Shown here: piece by piece, positions 7,371 to 32,750 of the stretch | Position numbering within the stretch: the stretch's first letter is position 1 | Layout of the letters: each line of letters starts with the position of its first letter | From: Shimia litoralis | GTDB lineage: Bacteria > Pseudomonadota > Alphaproteobacteria > Rhodobacterales > Rhodobacteraceae | Reading direction: 5' to 3' | DNA: 64,000 nucleotides | Assembly (NCBI RefSeq): GCF_005518135.1 | Contig: NZ_SULI01000014.1 | Coordinates: 1-64,000 of the forward strand | Position numbers and translations under genes: made by a program | The notes under the pieces: model-generated | What the model was told of the DNA's origin: nothing | The model's input: only the letters and a program-made list of their open reading frames with translations | Database searches by the model: none

Positions 7371-7554
7371 GCGGCGCAGACCAATCTTGAGGCCGTTGGG
7401 CGACAAGGTTGATGTGCCTGCACAATTTGGCAGTAGACAGATGGCGTGTTTTGCGGCGGCAAAGTTGGCGTTGCTAAGGCCCCTTTAGGTAGGTTAACAG
7501 GATGCCAACATCGGGCGGATCCTGCGCCTGAGACTTAGAAAGCCCGAAAGTCCT

Positions 7555-8028
7555 ATGTCTGATCCAAGTATGAAGGTGGTGTTGGTGACACCTGAAATTC
7601 CGTTTAACACCGGTGCGATCGGGCGGACGTGCGTGGCGCTAAATCTAGAGCTGATCCTGATAAAACCTTATGGTTTCTCGCTGGATGAAAAATCGGTGCG
7701 ACGGGCCGGAACAGATTACTGGAAGCATGTCCATCTGACCGAATATGACAGCTGGCAGAGCTTCCTAGATGCCAGAAAACCATCGCGCGAGAGCCTGTAT
7801 TTCTTTGAGGAACATGGCGCGCAGACTGTGTATGATCCCGAGTATAAACAGGATGCATTTTTGGTTTTCGGGTGTGAATCCAAAGGGCTGCCAGATTCAA
7901 TATTGGATGGCAACGAAGATCGCATATTTGGCCTGCCTATGCTCAATCCCCTTGTCCGGTCATTGAACCTCGCGAATGTCGCCACGGCGGTGATCTATCA
8001 GGCTATGCGGCCTCAGCTTGGCGGTTGA
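7555..8028 (+). CDS. trmL: tRNA (cytidine(34)-2'-O)-methyltransferase TrmL
   Basis: A 157-residue SPOUT-fold methyltransferase that transfers a methyl group from SAM to the 2'-OH of the wobble nucleotide of tRNA-Leu isoacceptors. The three SpoU motifs are present: motif 1 NTGAIGRTC (18-26), motif 2 FGCESKGLP (about 105-113) and motif 3 VRSLNLANVA (about 133-142), which form the SAM-binding trefoil knot. The length matches stand-alone TrmL (about 155 residues, no added RNA-binding domain). A second in-frame ATG (7570) is an alternative start. It converges on pepF across a hairpin. Confidence 0.88.
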   Translation: MSDPSMKVVLVTPEIPFNTGAIGRTCVALNLELILIKPYGFSLDEKSVRRAGTDYWKHVHLTEYDSWQSFLDARKPSRESLYFFEEHGAQTVYDPEYKQDAFLVFGCESKGLPDSILDGNEDRIFGLPMLNPLVRSLNLANVATAVIYQAMRPQLGG

Positions 8029-8071
8029 ACTCCGCGATTATCGTTTTGGGGCTGTGTATAGCGGGTGAATA

Positions 8072-8092
8072 GGCGGGCCCAAAAGGCCCGCC
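8072..8092. terminator. bidirectional hairpin between trmL and pepF
   Basis: GGCGGGCC (8072-8079) pairs perfectly with GGCCCGCC (8085-8092), loop CAAAA, between two convergent genes. There is no T-tract on either side. Confidence 0.6.
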
Positions 8093-8104
8093 CGCTGGCG
8101 TGAT

Positions 8105-9925
8105 TTAGTCTTCCATCGCTTCTAGTTCGTCGATCATGTTGGAAATCATCGACAGACCTTTGTCCCAAAATTTGGGGTCAGAGGCATCCAGACCAAAGGG
8201 CGCCAAAAGCTCTTTGTGGTGTTTGGACCCGCCCGCCTTGAGCATATCAAAGTACTTTTCTTCAAAGCCCTCGTCGCCTTCGGCATAGACCGCATAGAGC
8301 GCGTTCACCAAGCCGTCGCCAAACGCATAGGCATAGACATAGAATGGCGAGTGCACAAAGTGCGGGATATAGGCCCAGAAGGTCTCGTAGCCGTCCATAT
8401 ATTCAAACGCTTCCCCAAGGCTTTCGGCTTGGACCGACATCCACAGGGCGTTGATGTCATCAGGTGTCAATTCGCCTTCGCGCCGCGCCGCATGCAGTTT
8501 GCATTCAAAGTCATAAAACGCGATTTGGCGCACAACCGTGTTGATCATGTCTTCGACTTTGCCTGCCAGCAAGATTTTGCGCTGTTCTTGGGTTTCGGCC
8601 TTTTCCAGCATCTTGCGGAAGGTCAGCATTTCGCCAAACACCGATGCGGTTTCCGCCAACGTCAGGGGGGTCGATGACAGCATCTCGCCTTGCTCTGCGG
8701 CCAGCACTTGATGCACACCGTGACCCAGTTCGTGGGCCAAGGTCATCACGTCGCGCGGTTTGCCCAAATAGTTCAGCATCACATAGGGGTGCACGTCGGT
8801 GACCGTCGGGTGGGCAAACGCACCGGGGGCCTTGCCAGGCTTGACGCCTGCATCAATCCAACCTTTGTCAAAGAAGGGTTGCGCGATCTCGGCCATGCGT
8901 GGATCAAAGGCGGCATAGGCCTCCATCACCGTGTCTTGGGCTTGGTCCCAATCGACGATTTGGGTGTCTTCCATCGGCAGCGGGGCATTGCGATCCCAGA
9001 CCTGCATCACGTCCAGCCCCAGCCACTTGCGCTTGAGCTCGTAATAGCGATGCGACAGTTTGGGATAGGCCGCAACCACGGCATTGCGCAGCGCCTCGAC
9101 CACTTCGGGCTCTACATCGTTGGACAGGTGGCGCCCAGTTTGGGCGGTCGGCATGCCACGCCAGCGGTCGATGACCTCTTTTTCCTTGGCGGATGTATTG
9201 TGCACGCGGGCAAAGGTTTTCACATTTTCGGCAAACACACGGGCCAATTCACGCGCGGCCAACTCGCGTTTGGCGCGGTCTTGATCCGTGAGATAGTTCA
9301 ACGTGGCTTCGATGTTGAGCTCTTGACCTTCCATGTCAAAGGTCAGACCGGCGATGGTTTCATCAAACAGGCGTTCCCATGCGTCGCCAACAACCCCAAG
9401 ATCATGCAGGAACTTTTCCAGCTCGTCAGACAGCTGATAAGGTTTCATCGCACGAATGCGATCAAACACTGGCTTGTACCGCGCCAAATCCGCATTCTGG
9501 TCAAACGCCCCATCCAACGCATCATCTTCCAGCCGGTTCAATTCCAACGTGAAGAACACCAAGGGGGTTGTGAAATCTGTCAGCTTTTCCTGACAGTTGG
9601 ACATGAATTGCGCGCGTTCAGCATCGGTGGTCAGCTGATAATACCGCAATCCTGCATATGACATGATCCGGCCCGAAATTGCGCTGATTTTTTCGTTGCG
9701 CAGCACACAGGTCAACAATCCGTCTGCATCAAGAGTTGCCAGCTTGCCTTCGTAATCGGCTGCAAACGCGGCGCACTCTTTCTCGAGCCACTCCAGGTCG
9801 CGCTCAAGCTCGGGGGCGGTGGGCGATGTATAGAGATCGCTCAGGTCCCATTCTGGCAGGTTGCCAAGGTCGTCAGAGCCATGGCTGGCGTTGGCATCAA
9901 GAACAGGAAAAGGAAAGTCGCGCAT
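8105..9925 (-). CDS. pepF: oligoendopeptidase F (M3 family zinc metallopeptidase)
   Basis: A cytoplasmic zinc peptidase of the M3 family that cuts short peptides, about 606 residues from the chosen start. The zinc-binding HELGHGVHQ motif lies at about residue 395-400, with the third ligand Glu expected in LTLAETASVFGEML downstream, and the N-terminal helical lid region is complete. The open frame begins at 9958, but the ATG at 9925 has the better ribosome binding site (AAAGG, 8 nt upstream) and gives the start MRDFPFPV expected for roseobacter homologues. No partner genes are apparent. Role: peptide turnover. Confidence 0.9.
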   Translation of the reverse strand: MRDFPFPVLDANASHGSDDLGNLPEWDLSDLYTSPTAPELERDLEWLEKECAAFAADYEGKLATLDADGLLTCVLRNEKISAISGRIMSYAGLRYYQLTTDAERAQFMSNCQEKLTDFTTPLVFFTLELNRLEDDALDGAFDQNADLARYKPVFDRIRAMKPYQLSDELEKFLHDLGVVGDAWERLFDETIAGLTFDMEGQELNIEATLNYLTDQDRAKRELAARELARVFAENVKTFARVHNTSAKEKEVIDRWRGMPTAQTGRHLSNDVEPEVVEALRNAVVAAYPKLSHRYYELKRKWLGLDVMQVWDRNAPLPMEDTQIVDWDQAQDTVMEAYAAFDPRMAEIAQPFFDKGWIDAGVKPGKAPGAFAHPTVTDVHPYVMLNYLGKPRDVMTLAHELGHGVHQVLAAEQGEMLSSTPLTLAETASVFGEMLTFRKMLEKAETQEQRKILLAGKVEDMINTVVRQIAFYDFECKLHAARREGELTPDDINALWMSVQAESLGEAFEYMDGYETFWAYIPHFVHSPFYVYAYAFGDGLVNALYAVYAEGDEGFEEKYFDMLKAGGSKHHKELLAPFGLDASDPKFWDKGLSMISNMIDELEAMED

Positions 9926-10051
9926 AAGAGGCACCTTTGTTGAATTCATTTGTTGCATGACAGATAGGCGCAGCTTGCGGGGGTGTTCAAGGGCTGCTTG
10001 TGCTCAAGGGTCAAAGCAGTAGGGTGCAACGGGCAATGAGAGGGAAGTTTT

Positions 10052-10888
10052 ATGCGTTTTTTGAGGTATGGCGAGATAGGATCCGAGAAACCCGGCGTGA
10101 TGGATGCAATGGGTGCAATTCGGGATTTGTCATCCATTATTGATGATTTCACGCCTGATGTGCTTCAGAATTTACCGGATGTGGACCCTGCAGGTTTGCC
10201 TCTGGTTGAGGGGACACCACGCATTGGGGTGCCCGTCGCGCACGTCGGAAAATTTGTCTGTATTGGCCTGAATTACTCTGATCATGCCGAGGAAGCGGGC
10301 ATGGCCATTCCCACTGAACCCATTGTGTTTATGAAAGCCACAAGCGCCATTGTCGGTCCGAATGATCCGGTGGTCTTACCACGGGGATCAGTCAAAGGAG
10401 ATTGGGAGGTCGAGTTGGGCGTCGTGATCGGCAAACCCGCCAAATACGTCAGCGAGGCCGATGCTTTGGATCATGTTGCGGGGTATTGCATTGCCCACGA
10501 TGTGTCCGAGCGCGAATTTCAGATTGAGAGGGGTGGCAATTGGACCAAAGGAAAAAGTTGTGACAGCTTTGGGCCATTGGGGCCTTGGCTTGTGACACCG
10601 GATGAAATCAGCGACCCGCAAAACCTTGACTTGTCTCTGGACCTGAACGGTACGCGGATGCAAACCGGAAACACACGCGCAATGGTGTTTTCTGTGGCGC
10701 AGATCATTTCGTATCTGTCACAGATGATGAGCCTGCAACCGGGGGATGTCATTGCCACCGGAACACCGCCCGGCGTCGGCATGGGGATGACGCCGCCGCG
10801 CTATCTCAGGGCAGGTGACAGGCTTGACTTGTCGGTTCAGGGGTTGGGCCGTCAATCACAGACAGTTTTACAAGACAGCGATGCGTAA
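10052..10888 (+). CDS. fumarylacetoacetate hydrolase (FAH) family protein
   Basis: The 278-residue protein has the FAH-fold C-terminal domain that binds a divalent metal through an acidic triad, here Glu119, Glu121 (WEVELG) and Asp150 (IAHDVSERE), with the family hallmarks GLNYSDHA and TGTPPGVG. Members cleave or hydrate acylpyruvates and similar 2-oxo acids; close relatives are annotated as 2,4-diketo-3-deoxy-L-fuconate hydrolase or ureidoglycolate lyase, and the two are not reliably separated by sequence. It ends 6 bp before the stop of the convergent lipase gene and has no pathway neighbours, so the substrate remains open. Confidence 0.85.
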   Translation: MRFLRYGEIGSEKPGVMDAMGAIRDLSSIIDDFTPDVLQNLPDVDPAGLPLVEGTPRIGVPVAHVGKFVCIGLNYSDHAEEAGMAIPTEPIVFMKATSAIVGPNDPVVLPRGSVKGDWEVELGVVIGKPAKYVSEADALDHVAGYCIAHDVSEREFQIERGGNWTKGKSCDSFGPLGPWLVTPDEISDPQNLDLSLDLNGTRMQTGNTRAMVFSVAQIISYLSQMMSLQPGDVIATGTPPGVGMGMTPPRYLRAGDRLDLSVQGLGRQSQTVLQDSDA

Positions 10889-27602: not shown

Positions 27603-28052
27603 ATGGCGCGTAGGTTTTTTGGGTTTATCTGTACCGCGATTATGACGGCATCTATGGGGTGGGCCACCAGTCCGCAAAAAGCCGAGGATCAGACCGCAAC
27701 GGGCAAGTTTTTGACCGCGACCGAGGTCAAGCCGATCTTGGCCGCGACGCAAGGCAATTGGGTCGCCGTGCGCGAATACAACGGGCAGGATTTGGTGTAT
27801 TTCACGCATCTATTGGCCTGGAGATGTGGCCTGTATGAGATCAGTTTTTCGATCAATGGCCAACAGCAGCAGAATTTTGAGGTCCCTGCGTGTGATCCGG
27901 ATGCCGCCGCTCCGGGCGCGATCCCGGACACAGCCACGATCTACTTGGAGTATCCGCTGAACTCGGTCCAAACCATCAGCGTCTCATTGTTATATGACGA
28001 CCTCTCCACGCAGACTGTAACCTTTGAGCGTGCGAATATCATGACGCCCTAG
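27603..28052 (+). CDS. exported hypothetical protein
   Basis: The 149-residue protein starts with a signal peptide (MARRFFGFICTAIMTASMGWA) and continues as a likely beta-rich periplasmic domain with two Cys (in AWRCGLYE and VPACDPD) that could form a disulfide. No family was recognised. The ATG at 27603 follows AAGGAG at 6-7 nt. Its last 14 bases overlap the end of the convergent TetR gene. Confidence 0.65.
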   Translation: MARRFFGFICTAIMTASMGWATSPQKAEDQTATGKFLTATEVKPILAATQGNWVAVREYNGQDLVYFTHLLAWRCGLYEISFSINGQQQQNFEVPACDPDAAAPGAIPDTATIYLEYPLNSVQTISVSLLYDDLSTQTVTFERANIMTP

Positions 28053-28710
28053 TGGTGTTGGCGGCCTCAATTCCTGCGGCACAAAAGGTAATCAATTCAT
28101 CCAGATGGCTGGCGGCATCAGGGCGTGGGTCGCCTAAGGCTGCGACACGCCAACGTGACGTGACCAAGGCCAGCATGGCCGAGACCGAATATACCAACCC
28201 TGCGGCGATGGTTTGTCGCGCAGCCTGAGGATACAGCGCCGCAATTTCATCAATAAATATCTTTGCGGTCGGATCAAAACAGATTGCCGCAAGATCGCGC
28301 CAGCGCGGATCAGCCGACACATGTGCCACCAGACGCGCATATGACAGCCATTGCGGCCCACCTGTTTCCGCCTTTTCAAGGTAGGGCGCGAAAAAGCAAT
28401 CAAGAATGGCATGCAAGGTCAACGGACCCAATTCTTTGCGTGCATTCAGTGCATTGATACGCGCTGCGGCCAGTTCCTCGGCGCGGCGGCTTACCACGTA
28501 ACAAAATAACGCTTCTTTGGGGCCTCCGTGGTGGGTCACCAAACCTGCGGGCACATTGGCCTCTTTGGCAATGTCGCGCACGGATGCCCCCTCAAAGCCG
28601 CGCTCTGCAAACAGACGTTCCGCCGAATCAAAAATGCGCCCACGTGTTTCAAGAGATCGCTTGGAAGGCGCCCTTTGCCGTTGTTTTTCTTTCGGAATTT
28701 CGATGCTCAT
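28039..28710 (-). CDS. TetR-family transcriptional regulator of the FMO operon
   Basis: The 223-residue protein has a basic N-terminal arm (KEKQRQRAPSKR) and a TetR helix-turn-helix (RIFDSAERLFAERGFEGASV, then VRDIAKEANVPAGLVTHHGG), followed by a helical ligand-binding domain. It is divergent from the FMO-BASS-SDR-SDR operon, and the 66-bp gap contains a dyad (28730-28745), so it probably represses that operon until its ligand appears. Its end overlaps the convergent upstream gene by 14 bp. Confidence 0.85.
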   Translation of the reverse strand: MSIEIPKEKQRQRAPSKRSLETRGRIFDSAERLFAERGFEGASVRDIAKEANVPAGLVTHHGGPKEALFCYVVSRRAEELAAARINALNARKELGPLTLHAILDCFFAPYLEKAETGGPQWLSYARLVAHVSADPRWRDLAAICFDPTAKIFIDEIAALYPQAARQTIAAGLVYSVSAMLALVTSRWRVAALGDPRPDAASHLDELITFCAAGIEAANTTRAS

Positions 28711-28729
28711 AAAAACACCTTGCCTTATT

Positions 28730-28745
28730 TTGTACGACTGTTCAA
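28730..28745. promoter_or_regulatory. possible TetR operator before the FMO operon
   Basis: TTGTAC-GACT-GTTCAA (28730-28745) is a dyad of the form TTGNAC-N4-GTNCAA, in the gap between the divergent tetR and FMO genes. A GTACA/TTGTAC-like repeat recurs further right (about 28757 and 28771). Confidence 0.4.
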
Positions 28746-28776
28746 TCTAATATCAGTACACAGGGGAGGGTTGTAC

Positions 28777-30093
28777 GTGGCAACACACGAGAAATTCGCA
28801 CTGATTGGTGCGGGGCCAATGGGGCTTGCGACAGCTAAGGTTCTTAAGGAGCAGGGGATTCCGTTTCAGGGTTTCGAGATGCACTCAGATGTCGGGGGGC
28901 TGTGGGATATCGATGCACCGCTGTCGACGATGTACGAGAGCGCGCATTTGATCTCGTCCAAGCGGATGACCGAATTTGCCGACTTCCCGATGGACGACGA
29001 TGTGGCTGAATACCCTTCGCATCGCGAGCTGACCGGATACTTTCGTAAATTCGCCGATCATTTTGGGTTGCGGGAACGTTACAAGTTCAACGCCAAAATC
29101 ACCAAACTGACGCCCGTGGGGGCAAGCGGCGAGGGCTGGCAGGTTGCATGGCAAGACGAGCAAGGCGAACACTCGGAGACCTACGCCGGTGTTCTGATCG
29201 CCAACGGGACGTTGTCAGAGCCAAATATGCCAACCTTCAAAGGCACATTCGATGGCGAATTGATCCACGCGAGCCAGTATCGTCACGCCGCGCAGTTTGA
29301 CGGCAAACGTGTGCTTGTGGTGGGGGCTGGCAACTCTGGGTGCGATATTGCGGTGGATGCCATTCACCATGCACAGAAAACTGATCTGTCCATGCGACGC
29401 GGTTATTATTTTGTACCCAAATATGTGTTTGGCAAACCTGCGGACACCATGGGGGGCGCGATCAAGCTTCCGATGTGGCTTAAGCGCAGTGTCGATAGTG
29501 TGATCCTGAAATGGTTCGTAGGCGATCCGCAAAAATACGGTTTCCCCAAGCCGGATTATAAACTGTATGAAAGCCACCCCGTGGTGAATTCACTGGTGCT
29601 GTATCATGCTGGTCATGGTGATTTGACGATCCAGCCGGATATTGACCACTTTGATGGCAAGACAGTCCACTTTGTCGATGGCACGCAGGCTGATTATGAC
29701 ATGGTGCTGGCGGCCACCGGATATCGGCTGCATTATCCATTCATCGAAAAGTCGGACCTGAATTGGCAAGGCGATGCGCCACACTTATATTTGAATGCAA
29801 TGCATCCGACGCGCGATGATCTGTTTGTGTTGGGCATGATCGAAGCCACGGGTCTGGGCTGGCAAGGGCGCCACGAACAGGCCGAAATGGTCGCGCGCTA
29901 TATTTCAGGTATCCAAGCAGGGACGGCGGCAGCCAAAGACCTTCAGGCTGAAAAATCCGCAGATTTCACACGTGCAACGGGCGGGATGAAGTATCTCAAG
30001 TTGGCGCGCATGGCCTATTATGTCGACAAGGCCACCTATCGCGGTGCTGTCACGAAATGGATTGACCGACTGACCAAAGGGGGCGGATCATGA
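28777..30093 (+). CDS. flavin-containing monooxygenase (class B)
   Basis: The 438-residue flavoprotein has an FAD-binding GAGPMG (11-16), an NADPH-binding GAGNSG (183-188) and between them the FMO fingerprint F158-x-G160-x3-H164-x3-Y168. Such enzymes use NADPH and O2 to oxygenate N or S atoms, or insert oxygen next to a ketone (Baeyer-Villiger type); the Y rather than W at the end of the fingerprint favours the FMO class. The GTG at 28777 has a strong Shine-Dalgarno (GGGAGGG) and was chosen over the ATG at 28528, which would run through the tetR gene. Its TGA overlaps the next ATG, the first of three such couplings. Confidence 0.87.
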   Translation: MATHEKFALIGAGPMGLATAKVLKEQGIPFQGFEMHSDVGGLWDIDAPLSTMYESAHLISSKRMTEFADFPMDDDVAEYPSHRELTGYFRKFADHFGLRERYKFNAKITKLTPVGASGEGWQVAWQDEQGEHSETYAGVLIANGTLSEPNMPTFKGTFDGELIHASQYRHAAQFDGKRVLVVGAGNSGCDIAVDAIHHAQKTDLSMRRGYYFVPKYVFGKPADTMGGAIKLPMWLKRSVDSVILKWFVGDPQKYGFPKPDYKLYESHPVVNSLVLYHAGHGDLTIQPDIDHFDGKTVHFVDGTQADYDMVLAATGYRLHYPFIEKSDLNWQGDAPHLYLNAMHPTRDDLFVLGMIEATGLGWQGRHEQAEMVARYISGIQAGTAAAKDLQAEKSADFTRATGGMKYLKLARMAYYVDKATYRGAVTKWIDRLTKGGGS

Positions 30094-30992
30094 CCGAAAT
30101 TGATGACATCATGCTGAACTTCAGCCCCGCGTCATTACAGTTGCTGAATGGCATTCTCGCTGTGGTGATGTTCTCTATCGCGATTGATCTCAAGATCAGC
30201 GACTTTCGAGCGCTGTCAAAGGCCCCCAAACCCTTGGTCACGGGGTTGTTTTCCCAGTTTATCGTATTGCCTGCGCTGACGTTTGGTCTTGTGATTTTGT
30301 CTCAACCACGCCCGTCGATCGCGCTGGGCCTGATGTTGGTGGCTGCCTGTCCGGGGGGTAACATTTCGAATTTCATCACCCATCGGGCTGGTGGAAACTC
30401 TGCGCTGTCAGTGTCAATGACAGCCTTTGCGACTGTGGGGGCTATTTTGTTGACGCCTCTGAACTTGGCCTTTTGGGGCAATCTGTATGCGCCCACACGC
30501 GACATCTTGCGCGCTACGCATATTGATCCGGTGTCGGTTGCGATTACGGTGGGGCTCATGCTGGTCTTGCCTCTGATCCTTGGCGTGATGCTTAATGCCA
30601 AGCGGCCGGATGTCGCGCGCAGACTGCGCAAGCCGTTACAGTATCTTTCGATGGCAATTTTCCTTGCGTTTATCGTGCTGGCGCTCGCCGCAAACTGGGA
30701 TTTCTTTCTTGGATACGCTGGGGCTGTGGCAGTTTTGGTGGTGGTGCATAATACACTGGCGTTGGGCGGTGGATATTCCGTGGCAACACTTGCGGGCCTC
30801 AGCGCGTTTGATCGACGCGCCGTCACCATCGAGACGGGTATTCAAAACTCTGGACTGGGGCTTGTGTTGATTTTCGGGTTCTTCGGAGGATTGGGTGGCA
30901 TGGCCGTTGTTGCGGCATTCTGGGGCGTTTGGCACGCCATTTCCGGTCTTGCTTTGGCGGCGGTTATGAACAGAACCGAGGCTGCACGATGA
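30090..30992 (+). CDS. bile acid:sodium symporter (BASS) family transporter
   Basis: A 300-residue membrane protein of the BASS family with about nine to ten hydrophobic helices. The two crossing helices have recognisable sequences, AACPGGNISNFITH (about 87-100) and IETGIQNSGLGL (near 248-259), which in structures form the Na+ and substrate site. Substrates in the family include bile acids, pantoate, pyruvate and other organic anions. The start ATG overlaps the FMO stop (ATGA). Its place in this operon suggests it imports the compound acted on by the three oxidoreductases. Confidence 0.87.
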   Translation: MTEIDDIMLNFSPASLQLLNGILAVVMFSIAIDLKISDFRALSKAPKPLVTGLFSQFIVLPALTFGLVILSQPRPSIALGLMLVAACPGGNISNFITHRAGGNSALSVSMTAFATVGAILLTPLNLAFWGNLYAPTRDILRATHIDPVSVAITVGLMLVLPLILGVMLNAKRPDVARRLRKPLQYLSMAIFLAFIVLALAANWDFFLGYAGAVAVLVVVHNTLALGGGYSVATLAGLSAFDRRAVTIETGIQNSGLGLVLIFGFFGGLGGMAVVAAFWGVWHAISGLALAAVMNRTEAAR

Positions 30993-31927
30993 CACGGATA
31001 TTGATCACGGGTGCTGCGGGCATGATTGGTCAGGCGCTGTTGCAGCGCTTGGCCGGCACCGATCACGAGATCGTGGCGACGGACCTGCGCCCGCCAAAGG
31101 TGCTTCCGCCGAATGCGCAGTTTGAAAAACTGGATGTGACCACGGATGATCCTTTGACGGTGATTGCGCGTGTTCAACCCGAGGTCATCGTACATCTGGC
31201 ATCAATTGTGACGCCTCCGAAGGGATCGACACGTCAACTGGAATATGCGGTGGATGTGGCGGGTACCGAAAAGGTTTTGGAAGCGGCATTGGCTGTGGGG
31301 ACCCGACGTATTGTTGTGACGTCTTCCGGGGCGGCGTATGGCTATCATCCTGATAACCCTGTGCCCCTGCGCGAAACGGATGCGCTTCGAGGTAACCCAG
31401 AGTTTCCGTATAGCGATCACAAACGTCAGGTAGAAGAAGTGCTGGCGAGCGCCCGTGCCCATGCGCCGCAACTCGAGCAAGTTGTTTTGCGGGTGGGGAC
31501 GGTGTTGGGCGCCGGAACCCAGAACCAGATTACGGCCCTGTTTGAAAAACCACGCATATTGGCGGTACGCGGCAGCGAAAGCCCTTTTGTCTTTATCTGG
31601 ACAGAGGATTTGGCGGCGATTCTGCACCGGGCTGCCACGGATGGCCCGGCTGGGGTGTTCAACGTCGCCGGAGACGGCGCGCTTGGCGCGCGCGACATCG
31701 CCAAAGTTATGAATAAGCCCGTGCTGCGAATACCTGCATGGCTTCTCAAGGGGGCGCTGGCGGTTGCCAAACCTTTGGGGCTCAGCCGGTACGGCCCCGA
31801 GCAAGTGCGGTTTTTACAATATCGTCCGGTGCTGGCCAATGATGCGCTTAAAACCGCGTTTGGTTATGTGCCACAGAAATCCAGCGCCGAGGTACTGGCG
31901 TATTGGAAAGCGGAGACACACACATGA
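30989..31927 (+). CDS. NAD(P)-dependent epimerase/dehydratase (extended SDR)
   Basis: The 312-residue protein is an extended short-chain dehydrogenase: the nucleotide motif TGAAGMIG (7-14) and the catalytic Tyr141-x3-Lys145 (YSDHK), with Ser112-113 in VVTSSGAAYG. The C-terminal substrate domain is complete. Sequence alone does not decide between sugar-nucleotide epimerase-like and 3-beta-hydroxysteroid dehydrogenase-like activity; the neighbouring FMO and BASS transporter make a small hydrophobic ring compound plausible. The ATG at 30989 overlaps the transporter's stop (ATGA). Confidence 0.83.
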   Translation: MTRILITGAAGMIGQALLQRLAGTDHEIVATDLRPPKVLPPNAQFEKLDVTTDDPLTVIARVQPEVIVHLASIVTPPKGSTRQLEYAVDVAGTEKVLEAALAVGTRRIVVTSSGAAYGYHPDNPVPLRETDALRGNPEFPYSDHKRQVEEVLASARAHAPQLEQVVLRVGTVLGAGTQNQITALFEKPRILAVRGSESPFVFIWTEDLAAILHRAATDGPAGVFNVAGDGALGARDIAKVMNKPVLRIPAWLLKGALAVAKPLGLSRYGPEQVRFLQYRPVLANDALKTAFGYVPQKSSAEVLAYWKAETHT

Positions 31928-32682
31928 AAACCGCAGTTATTTCCGGCGGAAACGGTGGATTGGGGCAAGCCCTTGCGCGCAGGTTGCAAGGGCAGGGATG
32001 GCGCACGGTGCTGCTGGATTTGAATATTGATGGTCTCAGCACGACAGAGACACAAATTCCGTTGGCATGCGACTTGACCGACGCGCGGCAATTAGCGGAT
32101 GCGACGGCTCAAATTATTGCGATGTGCCCAACCATAGATCTGGTGATCTATAATGCAGGAATTACCCAAATCGGAGCATTTTCCGATACCTCGGTGGACA
32201 CCATCCGCAAGGTGTTCGAGATCAATGTCTTTGCAGCGATCAACATGGCCAAGGCCTTTTTGACACCGCTCCGAGACTCGCAGGGGACCCATCTTGCAAT
32301 TTCGTCGGTGGCTGGATTTTCTCCACTGTACCACCGGACGGCTTATGCGGCCTCAAAACACGCGCTAGAGGGGTTCTTTGGCTCGCTGCGTTCTGAAGAG
32401 GCAGCATATGGTGTGAAATCGCTGATTGCCGCGCCATCGTTTGTGGCGACAAATATTGGCAACGATCAACGTCAATCCGACGGCGTTGCCCGCCCCGGAT
32501 CAGCCACGGACGGTCTTGACTATATGACACCCGACCAAGCGGCCGACATCATTCTGCGTGGTGTGTCCAAACACGCCGCCTTTACCCCTGTGGGCCGCAT
32601 TGCGCGGCTCAGTTATGTGATCAATCGAGTGAGCCCGCGGCTGTTTCAGCATTTGATGGAGAAAAACATCAAGGGTACGTAA
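31924..32682 (+). CDS. short-chain dehydrogenase/reductase (classical SDR)
   Basis: A 252-residue classical SDR with the cofactor motif SGGNGGLG (7-14), the NAG motif (77-79) and the catalytic Ser127/128-Tyr141-Lys145 set (YAASK). The Asp at 32-34 (LLDLN) after the second strand favours NAD over NADP. It catalyses oxidation or reduction of a hydroxyl or keto group on an unknown substrate. The start overlaps the stop of the preceding gene (ATGA), making it the fourth translationally coupled gene of the operon. Confidence 0.85.
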   Translation: MKTAVISGGNGGLGQALARRLQGQGWRTVLLDLNIDGLSTTETQIPLACDLTDARQLADATAQIIAMCPTIDLVIYNAGITQIGAFSDTSVDTIRKVFEINVFAAINMAKAFLTPLRDSQGTHLAISSVAGFSPLYHRTAYAASKHALEGFFGSLRSEEAAYGVKSLIAAPSFVATNIGNDQRQSDGVARPGSATDGLDYMTPDQAADIILRGVSKHAAFTPVGRIARLSYVINRVSPRLFQHLMEKNIKGT

Positions 32683-32750
32683 TGCGCTTTGATGAAGCCG
32701 TGATCGCACAGAAGCGCGAAAATGTGGCCGAGGCGATGGCCGCATCATAG
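32682..32750 (+). CDS. possible 22-codon open frame at the end of the FMO operon
   Basis: The ATG at 32682 overlaps the SDR stop (TAATG) and a frame of 22 codons follows (MRFDEAVIAQKRENVAEAMA...). It could be the start of a gene deleted downstream, a small peptide, or chance. No family was recognised. Confidence 0.2.
   Translation: MRFDEAVIAQKRENVAEAMAAS

Follow-up and report, generated by a model that had tools for sequence, protein, structure and literature searches.

Four genes on the forward strand of the window (the whole 64,000-nucleotide stretch of Shimia litoralis DNA that was analysed) were found to be coupled by three ATGA overlaps, and a gene for a TetR regulator lies divergently alongside them (positions 28039–32682). 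The TetR gene (28039..28710, reverse strand) encodes a protein of 223 amino acids (aa) that matches Pfam TetR_N (3.5e-12) and TetR_C_30 (8.2e-29). The first coupled gene (28777..30093) has a GTG start and encodes a 438 aa flavin monooxygenase (FMO; Pfam FMO-like, PF00743) with an HLISSK motif, in which Leu58-Ile59 replaces x-Asn. It is followed by genes for a 300 aa transporter of the bile acid:sodium symporter (BASS) family that retains the Na+-site residues (30090..30992; Pfam SBF), a 312 aa extended SDR of the NAD-dependent epimerase/dehydratase fold with Y141xxxK145 and Asp32 (30989..31927; Pfam Epimerase), and a 252 aa classical SDR (31924..32682; adh_short), for which the nearest NCBIfam model, PRK06181, gave a score below the cut-off.

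The gap between the TetR gene and the GTG start at 28777 is 66 bp long and contains a TTGCCT sequence resembling the -35 box of the operon promoter (28720..28725, forward strand), a 16 bp dyad (28730..28745; TTGTACGACTGTTCAA, consensus TTGAACGnTCGTTCAA) and a GGGAGG ribosome site ahead of the GTG; translation could alternatively begin at a TTG at 28771. The ATGA-joined FMO, BASS and SDR genes, the divergent TetR gene and the dyad in the gap were all present where the original prediction placed them. The span that it gave, 28039–32750, stood as far as 32682, and the remainder is a non-conserved 22-codon reading frame (32682–32750) that overlaps the last stop codon (TAATG). This frame has no Pfam match and no counterpart among the relatives, and is outside the operon unit. 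A tRNA-Tyr gene and an rRNA methyltransferase gene are located downstream of the operon.

Relatives of the FMO were sought in one genome per species, and the best 80 of the 166 loci found were examined together with flanking DNA of up to 10 kb. The order and orientation of the five genes were intact in all 78 loci uncut by a contig end, and a TetR ortholog was divergent from the FMO gene in 80 of 80. With the window counted, the 4-base overlap was present in all 79 cassettes at the BASS/extended SDR junction, and in 71 of 79 at both the FMO/BASS junction and that of the second SDR. Most of the hosts belong to the Rhodobacterales (Shimia, Ruegeria, Thioclava, Pseudooceanicola, Celeribacter and others), and further examples come from Hoeflea, Pseudohoeflea, Zhengella and Ahrensia, and from Sneathiella. 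In the family to which the window belongs, 20 of 149 sampled genera carry the FMO at 73–79%, with a BASS gene (67–80%) directly behind it at nearly all places. The divergent TetR gene and the FMO-BASS-SDR-SDR genes are a real unit, and the expectation that the four coupled genes would be conserved together was borne out by this neighbourhood survey.

No gene, biosynthetic or other, was conserved around the five genes in the flanks of the 80 close loci. A fifth cassette gene was not added, as conservation of flanking genes does not extend beyond the level of clades, and a P-type ATPase gene behind the cassette at 13 loci and the reverse-strand reading frames over it were set aside as local or as shadows. 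Two additional genera among the 149 carried BASS alone. BASS orthologs (73–75%) without FMO were located in two family genomes (L115:7901-8899 and L116:8261-9178), each divergent from a gene for an acyltransferase-like protein (Acyltransf_2, 291–294 aa). As these genomes keep BASS without FMO, the transporter may also have a role independent of the FMO.

The dyad was present in all 81 compared TetR/FMO gaps, the best site agreeing at 10 or 11 of 11 fixed positions in 80 gaps and at 9 in one. Shuffled gaps mostly scored 6–7 of 11 and rarely >8, and conservation of the dyad is more than chance. A TTGC motif lies 9–10 bp ahead of the putative operator in 76 of the 81 gaps. Located between the -35-like box and the FMO ribosome site, the dyad is the probable TetR operator, and its position would fit repression by steric block. 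When the genome was scanned with the operator pattern, only two further matches were found. One is a near-identical copy of the dyad (contig C22:22133-22148; L174) that lies within a nirD-like reading frame and is probably due to chance. As there were only two other matches, the near-identical one in a coding frame, TetR looks like a local regulator, and a wider regulon in this genome was dismissed. The C-terminal domain of the regulator is of the TetR_C_30 type and weakly resembles the fatty-acid-responsive repressor PsrA.

More distant loci were mapped from BASS searches over the class and phylum and from FMO searches around three distant hits. The core of FMO, BASS and extended SDR recurs in gammaproteobacteria and in another alphaproteobacterial family. 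In the gammaproteobacteria it has other gene orders, AraC or IclR regulators and often a gene for a TauE-type transporter. The arrangements found were FMO-BASS-SDRe-SDRc-(TauE) with AraC, SDRc-FMO-BASS-SDRe with IclR, BASS-SDRe-FMO, and FMO-BASS-SDRc-TauE-amidohydrolase, where SDRe and SDRc are the extended and classical SDRs. The classical SDR slot also varies by lineage, with PRK07024 members that exceed the cut-off where the order is SDRc-FMO-BASS-SDRe and PRK06181-like proteins elsewhere, and BASS or the extended SDR is absent from a few relatives. As the core stays together under changing regulators and SDR subfamilies, the regulator and the second SDR are exchangeable. The compact TetR-controlled unit of transport plus oxidation originally proposed is supported both by the synteny of the 78 uncut loci and by this gammaproteobacterial core.

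The four genes diverged in parallel, the pairwise distance matrices of their proteins correlating with r 0.93–0.96 across 93 loci, a value to which shared ancestry contributes. In the FMO tree the FMOs linked to BASS group in a single clade (support 0.996), which lies within a wider Ile-motif clade (support 0.965), and each regulator type matches its own subclade. TauE/SafE proteins are encoded in the cassettes of L130-L132, L135, L158, L159 and L161-L165 and in none of the alphaproteobacterial cassettes examined; they matched no NCBIfam model, and give a weak hint that sulfur is involved or that another anion is exported. An operon of BASS, TauE and amidohydrolase genes with AraC and without FMO was seen in L133 (8343-11916), L134 and L136, and the related L130 and L132 carry the same TauE and amidohydrolase genes behind the FMO-BASS-SDR genes. 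At L125:6219-12294 and L137:3363-9034, BASS and both SDRs are accompanied by genes for a Vgb-lyase/SGL-like propeller protein and an MFS carrier in place of the FMO, a possible FMO-free version of the pathway.

The FMO matches PF00743 over residues 6–382 (5.5e-53; 180.6 bits, cut-off 22). It shares with class B FMOs (mammalian FMO1-5 and bacterial mFMO/Tmm) the FAD and NADP motifs, here GAGPMG and GAGNSG, and FxGxxxHxxxY, here FDGELIHASQY. In the alignments F158, G160 and H164 are invariant and Y168 is invariant or nearly so, and Asn186-Ser187-Asp190 resemble positions 195/196/199 of clade I. However, the Asn that stabilises the C4a-hydroperoxyflavin in class B enzymes (FMO3 N61, mFMO N78, AncFMO5 N62) is Ile59 here and Ile in 50 of 50 aligned clade members, and the Leu58-Ile59 dyad is invariant. 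Tyr53 aligns with the conserved Tyr56 of AncFMO5, which places Leu58-Ile59 at dyad sites 61-62. FMO sequences with Asn, Asp or His at the dyad site fall outside the Ile clade. The FMO is not a type I Baeyer-Villiger monooxygenase by motif (FxGxxxHxxxW and catalytic Asp/Arg), having Tyr168 at the Trp position and Ile59 at the Asp position.

The predicted structure of the FMO (pLDDT 92.4) and its sequence are nearest to DiatB and mammalian FMOs, well ahead of Tmm. The closest solved structure is DiatB (PDB 8z12; 8z16, N57A; 8z17, R360A; Z 45, rmsd 2.0 over 413 residues, 32% identity), which shares the Leu at dyad site 61 but has Asn57 where the FMO has Ile59. In a 2023 FMO phylogeny (PMC10682829), clades I-III carry Asn at site 62 (sparsely Thr, His or Val), clade IV carries Gln and Baeyer-Villiger enzymes carry Asp; Leu or Ile occupies site 61 in all Baeyer-Villiger-capable FMOs. 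The N61S change in FMO3 abolishes trimethylamine (TMA) oxidation and destabilises the intermediate (PMC5676948). With a Leu-Ile dyad instead of x-Asn, ordinary amine or sulfide oxygenation is an unlikely activity for this FMO, and Baeyer-Villiger-type or other carbon oxygenation is likelier than the classical chemistry. Alternatively, the dyad may reflect an enzyme that oxygenates poorly (an oxidase) or that catalyses an unrelated reaction.

The transporter matches Pfam SBF well above the cut-off (7.3e-37; 127.3 bits against 24.3). It belongs to the same family as ASBT_NM, PanS and ASBT/NTCP, with Na+-site side chains in common, but is only distantly similar to them, falling below the curated cut-off of TIGR00841 and scoring 118.7 bits against the cut-off of 400 for the PanS model, NF047939. 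When it was aligned to ASBT_NM, the Gln, Ser-Asn, Ser, Thr, Glu and Gln at the Na+-ligand positions (Q77, S114-N115, S128, T132, E260 and Q264) were all kept, and it is therefore likely to be a Na+ symporter. Bacterial BASS proteins also bind small acids, ASBT_NM binding pantoate (PMC10645422), and the family name therefore gives no pointer to steroids.

The extended SDR has a Rossmann fold with GxxGxxG and Ser-Tyr-Lys (S113, Y141 and K145 invariant), and matches Pfam Epimerase at 3.6e-30 and 3Beta_HSD much more weakly, at 9.5e-14. Its model (pLDDT 94.7) resembles GalE-type epimerases with Z of about 30; only sugar-nucleotide enzymes were at the top of the fold search, and no steroid dehydrogenase was among the matches listed. 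The classical SDR matches adh_short (3.4e-40) and contains YAASK in agreement with YxxxK. In each of the two SDRs, Tyr-xxx-Lys is present and the second strand ends with an Asp, a residue usually associated with NAD+, hence the oxidation direction that we propose for them.

Genes beside the cassettes and their relatives bear on the class of substrate. The statement that no beta-oxidation genes are attached holds for the cassette itself, but a sister FMO clade without BASS sits beside acyl-chain genes. There the FMO gene adjoins fatty acid desaturase, aldehyde dehydrogenase and acyl-CoA dehydrogenase genes in L152, AMP-ligase and enoyl-CoA hydratase genes in L113, and a DUF962 protein gene in L111. 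In L112, from an Agrobacterium plasmid, an amino acid permease and an Ile-type FMO are fused in one 966-aa frame (7531-10431), followed by genes for an SDR, a Phenol_MetA_deg family protein and a thioesterase. A TonB receptor gene (Pfam) follows the cassette in L159, with a gene of similar size at the same place in L162, and chemoreceptor genes are near L124 and L126, as expected for uptake. The acyl-chain neighbours and the TonB receptor slightly favour a hydrophobic or amphipathic acid as the substrate. No sterol ring-degradation, sterol or terpene genes accompany the cassette, nor does it contain methylamine genes.

We favour, at about even confidence, a substrate-inducible operon for the catabolism or biotransformation of an imported amphipathic organic anion. 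TetR bound to the dyad would block transcription until it binds the substrate or product. BASS would import the anion, probably a carboxylate, together with Na+, and the FMO would insert one oxygen using NADPH and O2, probably not by classical N or S oxidation but by a Baeyer-Villiger-type or other carbon oxygenation. The two SDRs would then oxidise the resulting hydroxyl group or groups in NAD-dependent reactions, and in the gammaproteobacterial relatives the TauE-type transporter would probably move a product or by-product. Counting against a catabolic route is that the cassette contains no ligase, esterase or ring-cleavage gene to complete it, and the varying classical-SDR subfamilies, the occasional absence of BASS or the extended SDR, and the BASS genes without FMO count against the model as a whole.

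A small or sulfur-containing acid (2-oxo acid, pantoate-like compound, thioether or sulfonate) is a somewhat unlikely substrate. The FMO would then be an S-oxygenase or a YUCCA-like oxidative decarboxylase, with TauE exporting sulfite or sulfonate in the gammaproteobacterial versions that have it. The binding of pantoate by ASBT_NM, the 118.7 bits with PanS and the TauE/SafE genes are consistent with this, as is the His that replaces Asn at the C4a site in rice YUCCA1 (PMC10682829). However, the PanS cut-off was missed, the alphaproteobacterial cassettes examined lack TauE, TauE proteins move other anions too, and acyl-chain genes lie beside the sister FMO clade. The steroid- or terpenoid-like substrate originally suggested is improbable. 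It would have BASS importing a bile-acid- or diterpenoid-type acid, the FMO acting as a Baeyer-Villiger enzyme and the SDRs as hydroxysteroid-type dehydrogenases, for which BASS family membership, the 3Beta_HSD match and the Leu that dyad site 61 shares with Baeyer-Villiger FMOs could be cited. The claim did not find support, as small acids such as pantoate are also bound by bacterial BASS proteins, the extended SDR is epimerase-like in both its Pfam match and its closest solved structures, sterol and terpene genes are absent nearby and the flanks beyond the five genes are unconserved.

It is similarly improbable that the cassette is biosynthetic or serves detoxification, with BASS or TauE exporting a product instead of importing a substrate. 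The cassette is without central-metabolism genes and has no esterase or CoA ligase through which a product could enter central metabolism, and TauE-type and MFS carriers adjoin relatives; however, the intact Na+-site residues are typical of importers, the TonB receptor gene in L159 argues for uptake, and the 80 close loci share no biosynthetic or other gene around the cassette. Known methylated-amine or dimethylsulfide (DMS) oxidation by a trimethylamine monooxygenase was rejected as very improbable indeed. The FMO belongs to the right family and weakly matches the trimethylamine monooxygenase model, but reaches 111.7 bits against a curated cut-off of 675 (NF058570), aligns well with solved Tmm only in the N-terminal half and, like its whole clade, has Ile for the catalytic Asn, in a cassette without methylamine genes. 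The pathway idea survived this check.

The gammaproteobacterial cassettes resemble mycobacterial MymA-type operons, in which an FMO/BVMO and an SDR are under the AraC-type regulator VirS. To our knowledge, MymA-type operons contain no BASS, extended SDR or TetR, and have lipase and ligase genes instead. No description of the cassette (gene set, DiatB, BASS) was found in the open-access literature searched. Every part belongs to a known family, and the operon is conserved and apparently undescribed, with an unusual FMO active site. A bolder reading, which we hold only tentatively, is that of an undescribed pathway for one amphipathic organic acid, widespread in marine Proteobacteria, in which an HLISSK FMO without the catalytic Asn catalyses an oxygenation, oxidase or decarboxylase reaction known from no FMO.

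About one in eight sampled genera of the family, and several orders with different regulators, carry the operon, and this wide occurrence suggests that the substrate is probably common in the sea. Identification of the substrate would assign the BASS transporter, the FMO subfamily and the two SDRs together, and the Ile-for-Asn change offers a direct test of whether oxygenation in the FMO family depends on that residue.
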